NCBI GenBank assembly: GCA_016932415.1
Contig: JAFGCX010000018.1
Span: 1 to 64,000, forward strand
DNA from: Candidatus Krumholzibacteriota bacterium
Lineage (GTDB): Bacteria > Krumholzibacteriota > Krumholzibacteriia > Krumholzibacteriales > Krumholzibacteriaceae
Length of the DNA: 64,000 nt
Direction: 5' to 3'
In this document: positions 4,070 through 41,719 of the stretch, one piece after another
Numbering within the stretch: the first letter of the stretch is position 1
How the letters are laid out: each line of letters starts with the position of its first letter
The notes under the pieces: generated by a model
Database searches by the model: none
Told to the model about the DNA's origin: nothing
Seen by the model: only the letters and a program-made list of their open reading frames with translations
Position numbers and translations under genes: made by a program

Positions 4070-6109
4070 ATGTTAAGAATTATCTGTTCTATGATCGCCA
4101 TTGCCGTGCTGTCTTCAAGCCTTTCAGCCAGGGTATGGCATATCAGAGATGATGGGAGCGGCGACGCTCCGACGATCCAGGCTGGAATCGATTCATGCAG
4201 CAGCGCCGATACTGTTCTGATCGCTCCCGGCTATTATACGGATCCAGGGAATATGGATATTGATTTTAAGGGGAAATCGATCGTGGTGACCTCAGAAGCC
4301 GGCCCGGACAGTACGACTGTCTTCGGTTTTCTGACTTCCGCCTTCAATTTTCATAGTGGCGAAGACAGCACTTCGATTGTTCAGGGCTTATTTATTGAGT
4401 CAGTTTGGGGGAATACGATATCGATCGATTCCTCATCACCTAAAATAACTGGAAATCGTATTCATAACAATACATATGAAGCATGCATATACTGTGAAAA
4501 CAGTTCGGCGATGATCTGCGAAAATGAGTTGAGAGCTTCTGAAAATGGGGGTATTTGCATAAAGAGCCTTAACGACAGTTCGACGATATTGAATAATTCT
4601 TTTGCCGGTAATGATTATTCACCCTGTATCCAATGCGACAGTTCCTGCGTTGAAATAATCGGAAACAGTACTGAATGGGGAAGATGGGGCATATTCGTAA
4701 CATATGGGTCTTACTCCATCATCGATAATGAAATAATCCATCCTTATTGTGAGAAAATTAATATTGAAGTTTCTGATCGATACGAATATATCCCGCCATC
4801 GCCTGGGGCAGGGATCGAGGTGATAGGAGCGACGACTACGATTGAAAACAACATCCTGTCCCGTGGAGGTAATAGAGGGATAAGTCTGACTGGCGGCTCG
4901 CATTATATACATGGAAATGAAGTAAAATATTTCGGCGGGATATATCACGCTGCAGGCATATATTGTACAGATCTGGATTCAACCACTACAATAGGAAATA
5001 ATTCAATTTCATATATCGAGAGTATGGAAGGCAGCCCGGGTATTTACTGTGAAAATTCAAGCCCATTAATAACCGGTAACATTATATCAGGGAGTCTTTC
5101 AAGTGGTGACTGTTCAGGTATTCATTGTGTTAATTCTTCTCCATATATTACAGGCAACACGATAACAAATACCACGATGGTAAATTCGGGCCATGCCGTA
5201 ATATTATGCGAAAACAGCAGTTCCCCGGTGATTGAAAAATGTATCATCGCCGGCAATCATTTTGATACCGGCGAGAATTGCAGCGCGATTTTCACGGCGG
5301 ATTCTACCAGCCTCCCTCTTGTCCAATGCTGCGACGTGTACGACAATGAAGCGGATAACTATGGCGGATATTTAACCGACCAGACCGGAATAAGCGGTAA
5401 TATCTCGGCAGACCCGATCTTCTGCGATCCCGGCGGCAAAGTCTATTCAATCCATGCCGAATCCCCATGCGCGCCGGGCAATCATCCCGAGTATACCGAT
5501 TGCGGCCTGATCGGAGCTCTCGGAGTAGATTGCTACTTTGTCTCTGCCTTGCTGCAATCTCATTCCGCATCATTTGATAAAGAGGCGATCATCATAGAAT
5601 GGAAATTGTCAGAACAGTATGGCGAGGAAGAATTCAAAATTTTTCGAGCGAAATCTCCAGCAGAGTTTTATTCAGTGATGGAAAACCCCGGAATTACGAA
5701 AGAAGGATTGACATATACAATTCATGACAAAGATATTGACCCTGGAAGCAGCTATCGATACAGGGTGGAGATAAACGATGATGGTCTTCCGAGCCTCCTC
5801 TTTGAAACCGACCTGATAGCAACGCCATCCATTCCATTGGTTCTATATCAGAATTATCCAAATCCCTTTAATCCGGAAACAAAGATAAGATATTACCTCC
5901 CCGAGAAGAGCATGGTGTCTCTTGAAATATTTGATGTCTCTGGAAAGAAGATAAAAACCCTTGTAAGTGAGATACAGGATAAGGGCAGTAAGGAATATTT
6001 CTGGAATGGGATAAACAGCAGAGGCGCTGAAATCAGTTCCGGGATCTACCTGTACAAGTTAAGAGCCGGGAAGAAAGTGCTGACAAAAAAAATGGTTCTC
6101 TTGAGATGA
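4070..6109 (+). CDS. Secreted right-handed beta-helix repeat protein with C-terminal sorting domain
   Basis: The first about 20 residues form a Sec signal peptide ending in SLSARV. Residues of about 25-480 consist of imperfect parallel beta-helix rungs with the recurring pattern I-T-G-N-x-I and many Asn/Ser turns, as in pectate-lyase-like PbH1 proteins. A fibronectin-III-like module follows (about 495-585), then a sorting domain starting at NYPNPFNPET and ending in KKMVLLR. This architecture is common among exported surface proteins of FCB bacteria. No catalytic motif is visible, so carbohydrate binding or an adhesin-like role is as likely as an enzyme. The gene has its own strong promoter and an AGGGGAAA ribosome site. 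Confidence 0.85.
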   Translation: MLRIICSMIAIAVLSSSLSARVWHIRDDGSGDAPTIQAGIDSCSSADTVLIAPGYYTDPGNMDIDFKGKSIVVTSEAGPDSTTVFGFLTSAFNFHSGEDSTSIVQGLFIESVWGNTISIDSSSPKITGNRIHNNTYEACIYCENSSAMICENELRASENGGICIKSLNDSSTILNNSFAGNDYSPCIQCDSSCVEIIGNSTEWGRWGIFVTYGSYSIIDNEIIHPYCEKINIEVSDRYEYIPPSPGAGIEVIGATTTIENNILSRGGNRGISLTGGSHYIHGNEVKYFGGIYHAAGIYCTDLDSTTTIGNNSISYIESMEGSPGIYCENSSPLITGNIISGSLSSGDCSGIHCVNSSPYITGNTITNTTMVNSGHAVILCENSSSPVIEKCIIAGNHFDTGENCSAIFTADSTSLPLVQCCDVYDNEADNYGGYLTDQTGISGNISADPIFCDPGGKVYSIHAESPCAPGNHPEYTDCGLIGALGVDCYFVSALLQSHSASFDKEAIIIEWKLSEQYGEEEFKIFRAKSPAEFYSVMENPGITKEGLTYTIHDKDIDPGSSYRYRVEINDDGLPSLLFETDLIATPSIPLVLYQNYPNPFNPETKIRYYLPEKSMVSLEIFDVSGKKIKTLVSEIQDKGSKEYFWNGINSRGAEISSGIYLYKLRAGKKVLTKKMVLLR

Positions 6110-37794: not shown

Positions 37795-39261
37795 CTATCG
37801 AAGAAGAATCAGTTTCCTCGACCCGGTGATGTCGCCGACAGTGTATCTCAGAAAATATACTCCGCTCGCCACTTCGAGGCCGGCATCGTTCCTGCCGTGC
37901 CAGAGCGCTTTGTATGCTCCCTTTTCGCGATAAGAGTCGACAAGGACTCTGACTCTTCTGCCGCCCGTGTCGAAGATCTCGAGGCGCACCTTCGATCCGG
38001 CCTCGCAGAAATACGGTATTGTCGTAGTCGGGTTGAACGGATTTGGATAGTTCTGTCCAACGGCGGCGATTACCGGGATATCGGAGCCGGAGTGTGCCGG
38101 GACGGAAAAAGTGATGTCGAAGGGAGGAAGCCCCGTATCGATCGGATGGGAAGTGATCTCCATATCGGTGGCGGTATCGTATACGCGGATCCCTGGATCG
38201 GTCGGCGTCTGGTCGGCGAGGAAAAGCTCTCCATACGGAGATATCCCGATATCGTTGATCACCCACGCGCCGGGGGAGTAGAGCGTCGCCGTCTTTGTCC
38301 CAGAGGCCCGGTCGAAACTGACCAGTTCTGTATGGAAACTCGAATTCGTGACGACCGCGTAACCTTTCGCGCCTCCCGCAAGATCGAAGTTGTTGATATC
38401 TCCCCCCGCCGCCGTCTCCGTGAGAAGATACCCTTCCGACTGAAAGGTGTAAGGGTTGATTATCTCAATGCCGCCGTCCTGCATCCCGAACCAGCCGACG
38501 CATGAAAGATGAAGCTTGCCCGAAGCCTCATCGAAGATGATCTCGGAAAAAGGGTTAGTTCCGGTCAGCGGTATCGATTGCACGCCGGGGACCGCGCCGT
38601 CGCAGTCGATGAGAGTGTCTGCGGCGCAATCTATCACGGCGATATAGCTGTCGCCGACAGGGCCCCAGTAGTTGTTCCTGTCGATCCGCTGGATCGCAAC
38701 GAAGAGTATGTCATGCTTGATGAATATATAAGCCATCTCGCAGAGGCCGTCGCCGTCGGCAAAGGATGAGAGGTCTATGCTGCCTGTGATCTCCCCGGTG
38801 ATCGTGTTCATGATCAGCAGTTCATTCGTGTCGAAGGTGGAGATATAAGCCTTCGTCTCAGACCTGAAGGCGATATCCTGAGGGTTCGACCCGTTCCCGG
38901 TGGAATACTGTCCGATCGTAGCGTACCCGGCGCCGGGATCGAGTATCTGGATATTATCCGCTCCGCCCCTGTTGACGACATATACAAGCTCGTTATACCA
39001 CCTTGCCACCGCGTCGCTGTGTATCGAAGCTATTCCAGTCGCGGTAGTATGCGATCCGTCGAGCAGGATCCTCGCCGCCGATCCGGACTCGTAGTCCGTT
39101 GTCGTGACGAAGGCGTAATCCACGGCGCCGGCGGAAAAAGGGAATGAAATAACGAGCAGGCAGGTCACGATCACTGCCGCAGCCGATCTGTTGAGATTTC
39201 CGTTCGACCTGTGCCATCCTGATACTTTTACTGACGACGATCTTCCATCGAAACCCGTCAT
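37795..39261 (-). CDS. Secreted beta-propeller protein with sorting domain, possible BtuG-like cobalamin protein
   Basis: The 488-residue protein has a signal peptide (ending FPFSAGAVDYAF) and a YncE/NHL-like seven-bladed propeller region (about 35-390; repeats such as YNELVYVVNRGGADNIQIL and SETKAYISTFDTNELLIMN). A C-terminal sorting domain opens at NYPNPFNPTT and ends in SRKLILLR. It starts 12 bases after the BtuB-like receptor stop, with GGGAGG overlapping that stop, so both are one transcript under the cobalamin riboswitch. Bacteroides BtuG, a surface beta-propeller, captures vitamin B12 for BtuB; synteny and fold suggest a similar job here, but BtuG is a lipoprotein whereas this one has a type IX-like tail. 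The functional link is inference. Confidence 0.8.
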   Translation of the reverse strand: MTGFDGRSSSVKVSGWHRSNGNLNRSAAAVIVTCLLVISFPFSAGAVDYAFVTTTDYESGSAARILLDGSHTTATGIASIHSDAVARWYNELVYVVNRGGADNIQILDPGAGYATIGQYSTGNGSNPQDIAFRSETKAYISTFDTNELLIMNTITGEITGSIDLSSFADGDGLCEMAYIFIKHDILFVAIQRIDRNNYWGPVGDSYIAVIDCAADTLIDCDGAVPGVQSIPLTGTNPFSEIIFDEASGKLHLSCVGWFGMQDGGIEIINPYTFQSEGYLLTETAAGGDINNFDLAGGAKGYAVVTNSSFHTELVSFDRASGTKTATLYSPGAWVINDIGISPYGELFLADQTPTDPGIRVYDTATDMEITSHPIDTGLPPFDITFSVPAHSGSDIPVIAAVGQNYPNPFNPTTTIPYFCEAGSKVRLEIFDTGGRRVRVLVDSYREKGAYKALWHGRNDAGLEVASGVYFLRYTVGDITGSRKLILLR

Positions 39262-39273
39262 TATCGTTCCTCC

Positions 39274-41379
39274 CTAAAGCTGATACCTGACTGAAGCGTA
39301 AAAACTCCTTCCGGGAAGAGGAAACCCCGCCACGTCGCTGGTCTTCTCGTCGCCGATATTGAGCCCTTCTATCGTAAAGGTCACACCACCGAGTGGAGGC
39401 CTTATAACCAGGTTGAGATTGTGGATCGTCCTCGCGCCGGCCTCTTTCATATTCGCCCTGTCGAGGAAGTTGGGGCTGGTATAGTTCGTCTCCCAGCGCG
39501 CCCCCCACCATTTTGCGTCATATTGGAGAGATATCGACGCGGCATGCTCCGGCCTTCCGGGAAGTGAGTTGCCGTTGTAATACGGTATCGGACCGGTATC
39601 GACGCTTTCGAGCCAGCAGTAGTTTCCCGAGATCCGAACAGGCCAGGGAAGAGACCCAGCGGCGGAGAGTTCGACGCCCCTGACCGTCGCCGACCCGATA
39701 TTCTCCGGTTTAACGGTCGACTGCGAATTGGGGAAGAAGAGGATAAGGTCGTCGATCTCGTTATGAAGATAGATGGCTTCGATGAAAAGATCGCGTATCC
39801 AGGCGAATCGCTCAGAAGAGAGGATGATCCCGATATCGCGGTTGAAGCCTGTCTCGGGGGTGAGGGAAGCGTCGCCTGTGACGCTTCCGAGATTGCCGAA
39901 CATCTCGAAAAATGTAGGCACCCTGTAATATCGGCCGGCGTTTCCCTTTATGGTGAGGAAAGAAAAGGGCATCAGCCGCAATCCAGCACCGGGCGAGTCG
40001 TTCCTCCCCGTGATCCTTCCCTGGGGAGTAGGAGGAAGCCAGGGGAAAAAGGGCTGGTCGTAGAATTCGTTGGCGTACCATTCCCACCGGTGGCCGTACG
40101 TAAAGATGATCCGGTCTCCGAGAAGGGAGAGGTCACCCGAAGCGGCGCAGGAGAGAGTCTCCCTTTTTCTGTCCGGCCCTTCCTCATAGAGGGGAAGGTG
40201 CTCGACGGGGTGAAATCTTTCTTTCCGTCCTTCAAAGAAAGTTTCTATCGAAAGGGGAAGAACCGGCGGAAAATATTTCAGCTTCATGTTGCTTCCGTAA
40301 GATACTATCGTATTGTCTGTCTTTGCCGCCGTCAGGTCGATCTCGCCCGCCGGGTCGTTAAAAGACTCGCGCGTCGAGGAATAGAAGATCGTCGCGTCGT
40401 TATGGAGCGATCCGGAGAATACCGGCAGCGGCTTGAGTCTCAGCCACGTTATCCTCCGCTGGCGCTCAAGCCTTGCTCTCGACGACTGATTCGCTCCGAT
40501 CCCGGGGACTCCGCCTTCGCGGTGGACGCTGCTGTGATTGAGCGAAAGGGAGGTGAATCCGGCCGGTTTGCACTCCATCCTGCCTGTAAGGCTGAGTTTC
40601 GTAAAATCGTTGTTCTCCCTTATGGCGTTAGCGTCGTCAAGAGGATTCTCGGGAGTAGCGTTATCGTCGAGGAATGAAAAGTCGCCGCGGCTTTCGGTAT
40701 ACCCCGCGCGAAGGTGAAGTGTGAGAAGCGAAAGTTGCCGGTCTGCCCCGGCGGAATATTTCCGCGCCCCGAATGAACCGGCTGCTACCGAAGCGCTCAT
40801 CGAGTTCGCCCCTTCGCCATCCCGGCCGACCCTGCCTGTTCCAGGGACGAGGTTGACCGTTCCGCCCACCGAGGATGCGCCGAATCCGGTAGGGCTGAAT
40901 CCGCGGTAGACCTCTATCCTGCCTATATCTTCAAGGGAAAGATCAGCCAGGTCGGTCATCCCCGACCACGCGTCGTTTAGCGGGACTCCGTCGATATAGA
41001 CCTGCACCTGGGTCGACGACGATCCACGGATCGACATCGTCGCGAATGAGCCGAGCCCGCCGTACTGTTTTATCCTTACTCCAACGGTGTTTGAAAGGAT
41101 ACCGGCGGCGTCCTCGAAGGCGCTTTTCCCCTTTTCCAGTTCTATCAGGCCGACAAAGCCGCTTCTGTTGAATATCTCCTTGCCCGGCGTGGAGTGAAAC
41201 CCCTCGACTACGATCTCCGGGGCCCAGAAAAGGGTGTCGAGGAGAGTCTCTTGAGATTTTTCAGGTTTATTCCGCGATTCCGCGCCCTTTTCGGCGCTTG
41301 CCCCGACAGGGCGGAGGACTGTCAGGCATAACGCCAGTGCGATCGGCAGGAAAGACAGTCTGTGAGGACGGCTTCTCAT
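39274..41379 (-). CDS. btuB: TonB-dependent outer-membrane receptor, BtuB-like
   Basis: The 701-residue protein has a signal peptide (MRSRPHRLSFLPIALAL...GASA), a plug domain (about 55-175: TVGVRIKQYGGLG, MSIRGSSSTQVQVYIDGV, IEVYRG), and a 22-strand barrel to an aromatic-ended C-terminus (GRSFYASVRYQL). It imports a bound ligand across the outer membrane with TonB energy. The ligand is taken as cobalamin because a cobalamin riboswitch precedes the gene. The ATG at 41379 is chosen since GGAGTGAA lies just upstream, and the longer frame to 41463 would begin inside the riboswitch terminator. No clear TonB box was picked out. Confidence 0.9.
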   Translation of the reverse strand: MRSRPHRLSFLPIALALCLTVLRPVGASAEKGAESRNKPEKSQETLLDTLFWAPEIVVEGFHSTPGKEIFNRSGFVGLIELEKGKSAFEDAAGILSNTVGVRIKQYGGLGSFATMSIRGSSSTQVQVYIDGVPLNDAWSGMTDLADLSLEDIGRIEVYRGFSPTGFGASSVGGTVNLVPGTGRVGRDGEGANSMSASVAAGSFGARKYSAGADRQLSLLTLHLRAGYTESRGDFSFLDDNATPENPLDDANAIRENNDFTKLSLTGRMECKPAGFTSLSLNHSSVHREGGVPGIGANQSSRARLERQRRITWLRLKPLPVFSGSLHNDATIFYSSTRESFNDPAGEIDLTAAKTDNTIVSYGSNMKLKYFPPVLPLSIETFFEGRKERFHPVEHLPLYEEGPDRKRETLSCAASGDLSLLGDRIIFTYGHRWEWYANEFYDQPFFPWLPPTPQGRITGRNDSPGAGLRLMPFSFLTIKGNAGRYYRVPTFFEMFGNLGSVTGDASLTPETGFNRDIGIILSSERFAWIRDLFIEAIYLHNEIDDLILFFPNSQSTVKPENIGSATVRGVELSAAGSLPWPVRISGNYCWLESVDTGPIPYYNGNSLPGRPEHAASISLQYDAKWWGARWETNYTSPNFLDRANMKEAGARTIHNLNLVIRPPLGGVTFTIEGLNIGDEKTSDVAGFPLPGRSFYASVRYQL

Positions 41380-41461
41380 TTCACTCCAGCCGGTTCTGTG
41401 CCGGCGGGGAATACCTGTCCTCGTCGAAGAAGATCGATCGTCAGATCCCGGCGGGGGTAAC

Positions 41462-41501
41462 AAAAAACCCTCCGGGCCTTTTTGGAAAAAAAGGTGGAGG
41501 G
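41462..41501 (-). terminator. Riboswitch-controlled intrinsic terminator
   Basis: On the minus strand CCCTCC (41496-41501) pairs with GGAGGG (41468-41473), with an inner CCTTTTT/AAAAAGG stem, followed by six T (41462-41467). It lies between the cobalamin riboswitch and the receptor gene, the position expected for attenuation when cobalamin is bound. Confidence 0.75.
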
Positions 41502-41559
41502 GGTGTCAGCCTCTCCCTATCCTCTCATTCCTCGAAGAGGGCCAGGGACAAAACGCGTC

Positions 41560-41680
41560 CAGGCAGGTATCCTGACTTATGGCCTTTTCCGCTTCGCGGT
41601 CTGGCCAATCACAGTGGCGGGTCCGTGAGGGAGTCTCACCCTCTTCCCCTTTTGCTCTATTTGAGCGCCTGAAACCAAAA
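41560..41680 (-). promoter_or_regulatory. Cobalamin (B12) riboswitch
   Basis: Read on the minus strand, the leader has a GGGTGAGACTCCC stem region, the invariant GACCCGCCACTGTGA core, and ends with the B12-box-like AGTCAGGATACCTGCCT (41561-41578). These are the conserved parts of the cobalamin riboswitch. A strong promoter lies just upstream, and a terminator and the BtuB-like gene lie downstream. It should reduce expression of the receptor and the propeller protein when adenosylcobalamin is plentiful. Confidence 0.92.
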
Positions 41681-41690
41681 TAACATCCGG

Positions 41691-41719
41691 ATATTAACGG
41701 TCCTCGGAGAAGGTGTCAA
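41691..41719 (-). promoter_or_regulatory. Promoter of the cobalamin riboswitch transcript
   Basis: On the minus strand TTGACA (41714-41719), a 17-base spacer and TAATAT (41691-41696) form a near-consensus promoter whose start would fall at about 41684, right at the 5' edge of the riboswitch. Confidence 0.8.

Follow-up and report, generated by a model that had tools for sequence, protein, structure and literature searches.

The stretch of DNA analysed here (the window, 64,000 nucleotides of a Candidatus Krumholzibacteriota genome) carries on its minus strand a promoter-like site, a cobalamin riboswitch, a terminator-like hairpin, a BtuB-type TonB receptor and a secreted beta-propeller, encoded in that order and with a gap of exactly 12 bases between the receptor and propeller genes. 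This arrangement had been claimed in a first-pass annotation of the same DNA, and each of its parts was confirmed on that strand at the following positions.

41691..41719, minus strand: promoter-like site TTGACA-17-TAATAT (10 of 12 matches; directly upstream of the riboswitch)
41545..41687, minus strand: cobalamin riboswitch aptamer RF00174 (69.6 bits against a gathering score of 31.5; E 4.2e-15)
41460..41502, minus strand: intrinsic-terminator-like hairpin with U6, expression platform (fold -16.6 kcal/mol, z -2.7)
39274..41382, minus strand: btuB-like TonB-dependent receptor, 702 aa, with Sec signal peptide (Plug and barrel Pfam domains)
37795..39261, minus strand: BtuG-like propeller gene, 488 aa (profile, fold, linkage)
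39124..39261, minus strand: Sec signal peptide of the propeller protein, residues 1-46, without lipobox (sequence; anchor survey)
38086..39123, minus strand: beta-propeller domain, residues 47-392, net charge about -32 (model pLDDT 91.9; Foldseek to BtuG)
37807..38049, minus strand: type IX (type A) C-terminal sorting domain, residues 405-485 (TIGR04183, 29.4 bits, cut-off 23)

Components of the operon and their genomic setting

The riboswitch of the window is the sole cobalamin riboswitch in the 3.11-Mb assembly. The region contains two promoter-like sites, where 0.3 would be expected, and a TTGACA also precedes the riboswitch of a related locus (L005), in which the sequence of the terminator-like hairpin is conserved as well. 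When positions 41502-41460 were folded as a target, the stability of the hairpin was reached by 1 of 200 shuffled sequences; a simple terminator scan of the region missed it, and folding of a longer leader stretch (41450-41530), which was no more stable than its shuffles (z -0.8), did not favour it. A chance arrangement of the entire series of elements is excluded by its recurrence, in unchanged order, in 53 Krumholzibacteriota genomes. The receptor gene starts at an ATG with a GGAG site, and the listed TTG at 41463 is unnecessary.

The C-terminal domain of the propeller protein is FlgD_ig-like and displays seven strands in the AlphaFold model (mean pLDDT 91.9). The type IX sorting tail and the lack of a lipid anchor proposed for this protein were both borne out by the TIGR04183 match above its cut-off and by a plain Sec signal devoid of a lipobox, with the Pfam models Por_Secre_tail and FlgD_ig scoring the tail just below their cut-offs. 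The genome encodes both SprA (471 bits, cut-off 200) and PorU (542.5 bits, cut-off 420), so that machinery for handling the tail is present; the combination of a C-terminal sorting domain with genes for a translocon and a sortase is that of a type A cargo of the type IX system. The same tail matches about 70 places in the genome, several of them in the window (such as 1857-2144 and 5777-6106); type IX cargo is plentiful in this organism, and a tail common to so many places is uninformative on B12 specifically. Scans of Pfam and NCBIfam matched no family to the propeller domain (Pfam returning tail domains only), and because that domain lies outside the families of both collections, such propeller genes are at present without a functional name.

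Six B12-binding domains scored over cut-off in the genome, and no CobB/CobQ-type amidotransferase did so, an absence that is not proof in an assembly that is about 95% complete; judged from this gene content, the organism likely needs to scavenge B12. In three other Krumholzibacteriota genomes, a second cobalamin riboswitch stands ahead of a gene for a 263-267-aa secreted protein (L090, 6578-7378, minus strand; L091, 6786-7574, minus strand; L092, 661-1449, plus strand), with a cysteine-synthase-like open reading frame next in L091 and L092. These secreted proteins matched nothing in Pfam, and a PDB search with that of L092 was empty; they are candidates for a further B12-related surface protein. 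Other cobalamin riboswitches of the phylum, in L093, L094 and L097, precede large open reading frames that, by eye, have the look of an anaerobic ribonucleotide reductase and its activase.

Relationship of the propeller and receptor to Bacteroides proteins

A search of the PDB with the single propeller sequence returned no BtuG and nothing convincing, so that homology to BtuG can be recognised only with a profile. When a profile of 49 relatives was used instead, the best propeller matches were BtuG structures. Since the profile that included the tail (A1) flooded genomes with tail matches, a propeller-only profile of 51 sequences (A2) was built, and the top nine sequences that it matched in the PDB were all BtuG (9.5e-12 to 1.5e-8), followed by WD40 propellers at 2.2e-3. 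The structural comparison with BtuG that had been suggested for this protein gave a corresponding result, in that BtuG chains took 15 of the top 16 places among the model's fold matches: ranks 2-16 in Foldseek were all BtuG (target-normalised TM 0.73-0.81, 3.5-4.2 Å), and rank 1 was an archaeal multi-domain S-layer propeller (1l0q) at an rmsd of 23.7 Å. Other propellers fitted the model worse (XusB, TM 0.61-0.67; YncE, rmsd >10 Å).

On these profile and predicted-fold matches, the propeller is best regarded as a distant homologue of Bacteroides BtuG and not merely as its analogue; a convergent origin was considered and is ruled out by the same matches. The first-pass annotation had spoken of a possible BtuG analogue representing a parallel solution in another phylum. 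The likeness to BtuG stood, with respect to profile, predicted fold, operon and regulation, and the idea of mere analogy did not; nor did that of a parallel solution, what changed being the surface anchor.

Like BtuG (BtuG1-3 of Bacteroides thetaiotaomicron; 8bmy, 8okv, 8ptd; 3dsm), which is its nearest PDB match by both sequence profile and fold, the protein is an acidic beta-propeller whose gene adjoins btuB within a cobalamin-riboswitch locus. Unlike BtuG, it is not a surface lipoprotein, its sorting tail taking the place of the lipobox and export signal, and for that reason it is classed here as a BtuG-like homologue rather than as BtuG proper. Identity in the structural alignment is about 14-16%, and the pocket residues are apparently unconserved: the BtuG2 position that corresponds to Trp194 (by inferred numbering) aligns with a conserved Gln-Arg-x-Asp stretch, so that the two pockets apparently differ, and the B12-contact residues Trp272 and Tyr316 of BtuG2 could not be aligned reliably to the propeller family. 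Because the aligned pocket residues differ in this manner, B12 binding by the propeller is a property that we infer. The net charge of the domain (-32, against a family median of -28) fits the report of a negatively charged B12-binding face on BtuG2 (PMC10404256), and the conserved acidic residues of the family sit in loops.

The receptor possesses both the plug and barrel of a TonB-dependent transporter and similarity to B12 receptors, and shares the fold of BtuB1 and BtuB3 of B. thetaiotaomicron (8blw, 8p97) and of E. coli BtuB (1nqe). The best B12 transporters in the PDB for its sequence were the Bacteroides BtuB1/BtuB3 proteins, ahead of E. coli BtuB, and it scored 99.9 bits, under the cut-off of 599.7, with the NCBIfam equivalog for E. 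coli-like BtuB (TIGR01779); by sequence, it is of the Bacteroides kind and not an E. coli-like BtuB. Its model was nearest to XusA and BtuB1, both of which are receptors with propeller lids.

Two propeller-less relatives show the reverse of this closeness to the BtuG-capped type. Three Krumholzibacteriota loci with a riboswitch but without a propeller were opened (L086, L087 and L088), and each encodes a shorter BtuB-like receptor; for the two that were searched, L086 and L087, the best PDB match was E. coli BtuB (171 and 157 bits, respectively). Phosphate-uptake genes adjoin the receptor in L087 and L088, and the propeller operon of L005 and of L006 is bordered by the same genes. Given these shared neighbours, it seems that the receptor with its propeller and the stand-alone receptor are replacements for one another at a single site.

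Genomic linkage, distribution and exchange of anchors

A scan of genome contigs with one sequence yielded two loci only, and whole-genome profile searches were therefore adopted. The propellers in L005 and L006 are 72% and 60% identical to that of the window, and each follows a riboswitch and btuB. The propeller is present in 64 of 80 Krumholzibacteriota genomes, almost always as one copy per genome; in 57 of these 64 it is immediately preceded by btuB on the same strand, and in 53 a riboswitch is located 2.1-2.5 kb upstream. In several of the six genomes that displayed neither btuB nor riboswitch, the match is at a contig end. Those members from the phylum that were fully read carry both a signal peptide and a sorting tail.

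Outside the phylum, the A2 profile found relatives at E 1e-8 or better in 53 genomes from 45 family-level groups, the members having been picked by protein similarity with position ignored, and a few of the genomes possibly being Bacteroidota. A cobalamin riboswitch was found in 52 of the 53, and in 54 of 64 matches and 48 of 53 genomes the propeller follows one on the same strand at a distance of no more than 6 kb. The search near B12-regulated loci of other groups that the first-pass annotation had recommended thus gave a positive answer, and homologues unlinked to B12 transport, which it had named as evidence against its proposal, did not emerge as the pattern either inside or outside the phylum; with relatives in 45 further family-level groups, the propeller is not special to this phylum.

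Among 118 complete proteins, curation assigned a sorting tail only to 73, a lipobox only to 36, both to none and neither to 9; outside the phylum the corresponding counts were 18, 36, 0 and 9 (Fisher p 1.8e-9; raw 6.8e-5, both values ignoring shared descent). The uncurated lipobox pattern had produced seven apparent proteins with tail and lipobox, which were rejected on reading because each of the cysteines was judged to be part of either the signal's hydrophobic core or the mature domain. Anchor type switched at least four times on a tree built from 59 propellers, in which several branches are weak. Weak relatives in L130, L150 and L154, located behind B12 riboswitches, bear neither sorting tail nor lipobox and end in regions that appear dockerin-like by eye, possibly a third anchoring mode.

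A proposed uptake mechanism and its alternatives

We hold it to be probable that the locus is a B12-repressible uptake operon in which a type IX-delivered, BtuG-like propeller feeds the co-encoded BtuB. At low intracellular cobalamin, the riboswitch would let transcripts extend beyond the terminator, so that both btuB and the propeller gene are transcribed. The propeller would then cross the inner membrane via Sec and the outer membrane via the type IX translocon (SprA), after which PorU would remove the C-terminal tail and the protein would be retained at the surface, either attached to LPS or held by its partner. There, its acidic face would capture corrinoids and hand them to BtuB, in an action like that of BtuG, which binds corrinoids very tightly and forms a complex with BtuB, but with a tail-based tether. 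We infer the binding of B12, the surface exposure, the contact with BtuB and the fate of the tail. It is conceivable, if somewhat doubtful, that the tailed form is not a hinged lid but is instead cut by PorU and released or linked to LPS, as a corrinoid scavenger that returns its cargo to BtuB; such a diffusible or loosely tethered protein would deserve the name cobalophore, by analogy with hemophores.

That the propeller serves at the surface as a structural or scaffold protein, stabilising BtuB or a surface layer without binding B12, appears unlikely: the S-layer propeller at the head of the Foldseek results and the pocket residues unlike those of BtuG2 would agree with such a role, but the former is a multi-domain alignment with poor superposition, the conserved acidic residues are placed in loops, and loci with a stand-alone BtuB of the E. 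coli type lack the propeller gene. Quite unlikely is the capture of another TonB substrate, such as a siderophore, with the riboswitch merely tracking cobamide state. XusAB (9gbc, 9hqk), a siderophore receptor with a propeller lipoprotein as its lid (PMC13142918), shares with the window the layout of receptor plus propeller lid and the receptor fold, and the receptor model comes closest to XusA; the XusAB propeller, however, is a lipoprotein with a different ligand and a weaker match, the family profile matches BtuG and not XusB, and both the ligand specificity of the riboswitch and the linkage to cobalamin riboswitches in 45 other family-level groups speak against the siderophore. A generic YncE/YVTN-type propeller beside btuB by accident, which the commonness of propellers and the undetectable single-sequence similarity to BtuG might suggest, is refuted as wildly improbable by the linkage, namely a near-fixed and almost always single-copy site behind btuB within the phylum and a linkage outside it for which chance would account in well under 1% per gene (a rough estimate that assumes about one riboswitch per 3-Mb genome).

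When BtuG was described in 2018, it was regarded as exclusive to Bacteroidetes, on the basis of BLASTP searches of 313 gut genomes, and was discussed as a response to competition among gut bacteria (PMC6143338). The present findings contradict that exclusivity. As relatives occupy B12-controlled loci across many bacterial lineages, B12 capture via a BtuG-like propeller probably long predates, and extends well beyond, the gut bacteria of its first description, and its presence through an entire environmental candidate phylum and 45 other family-level groups points to an old and general answer to B12 scarcity. The open-access papers searched contained no report of a BtuG-like propeller outside Bacteroidetes or of a sorting-tailed form. 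Likewise distributed over several clades are the scavenging DUF4465 proteins (BtuJ and relatives), for which B12 binding across clades was demonstrated recently (PMC13398666), but they form a separate family and are mostly predicted lipoproteins. Since the anchors replace each other, and since absence of the propeller tracks the other receptor type in the loci examined, what the tether contributes to lid-type TonB transport can now be tested directly.

Tandem pairs of BtuG-like propellers occur within single loci in L115, L121, L116 and L085; in the genome of L085 no B12 riboswitch was found, and the other three pairs are each accompanied by one.
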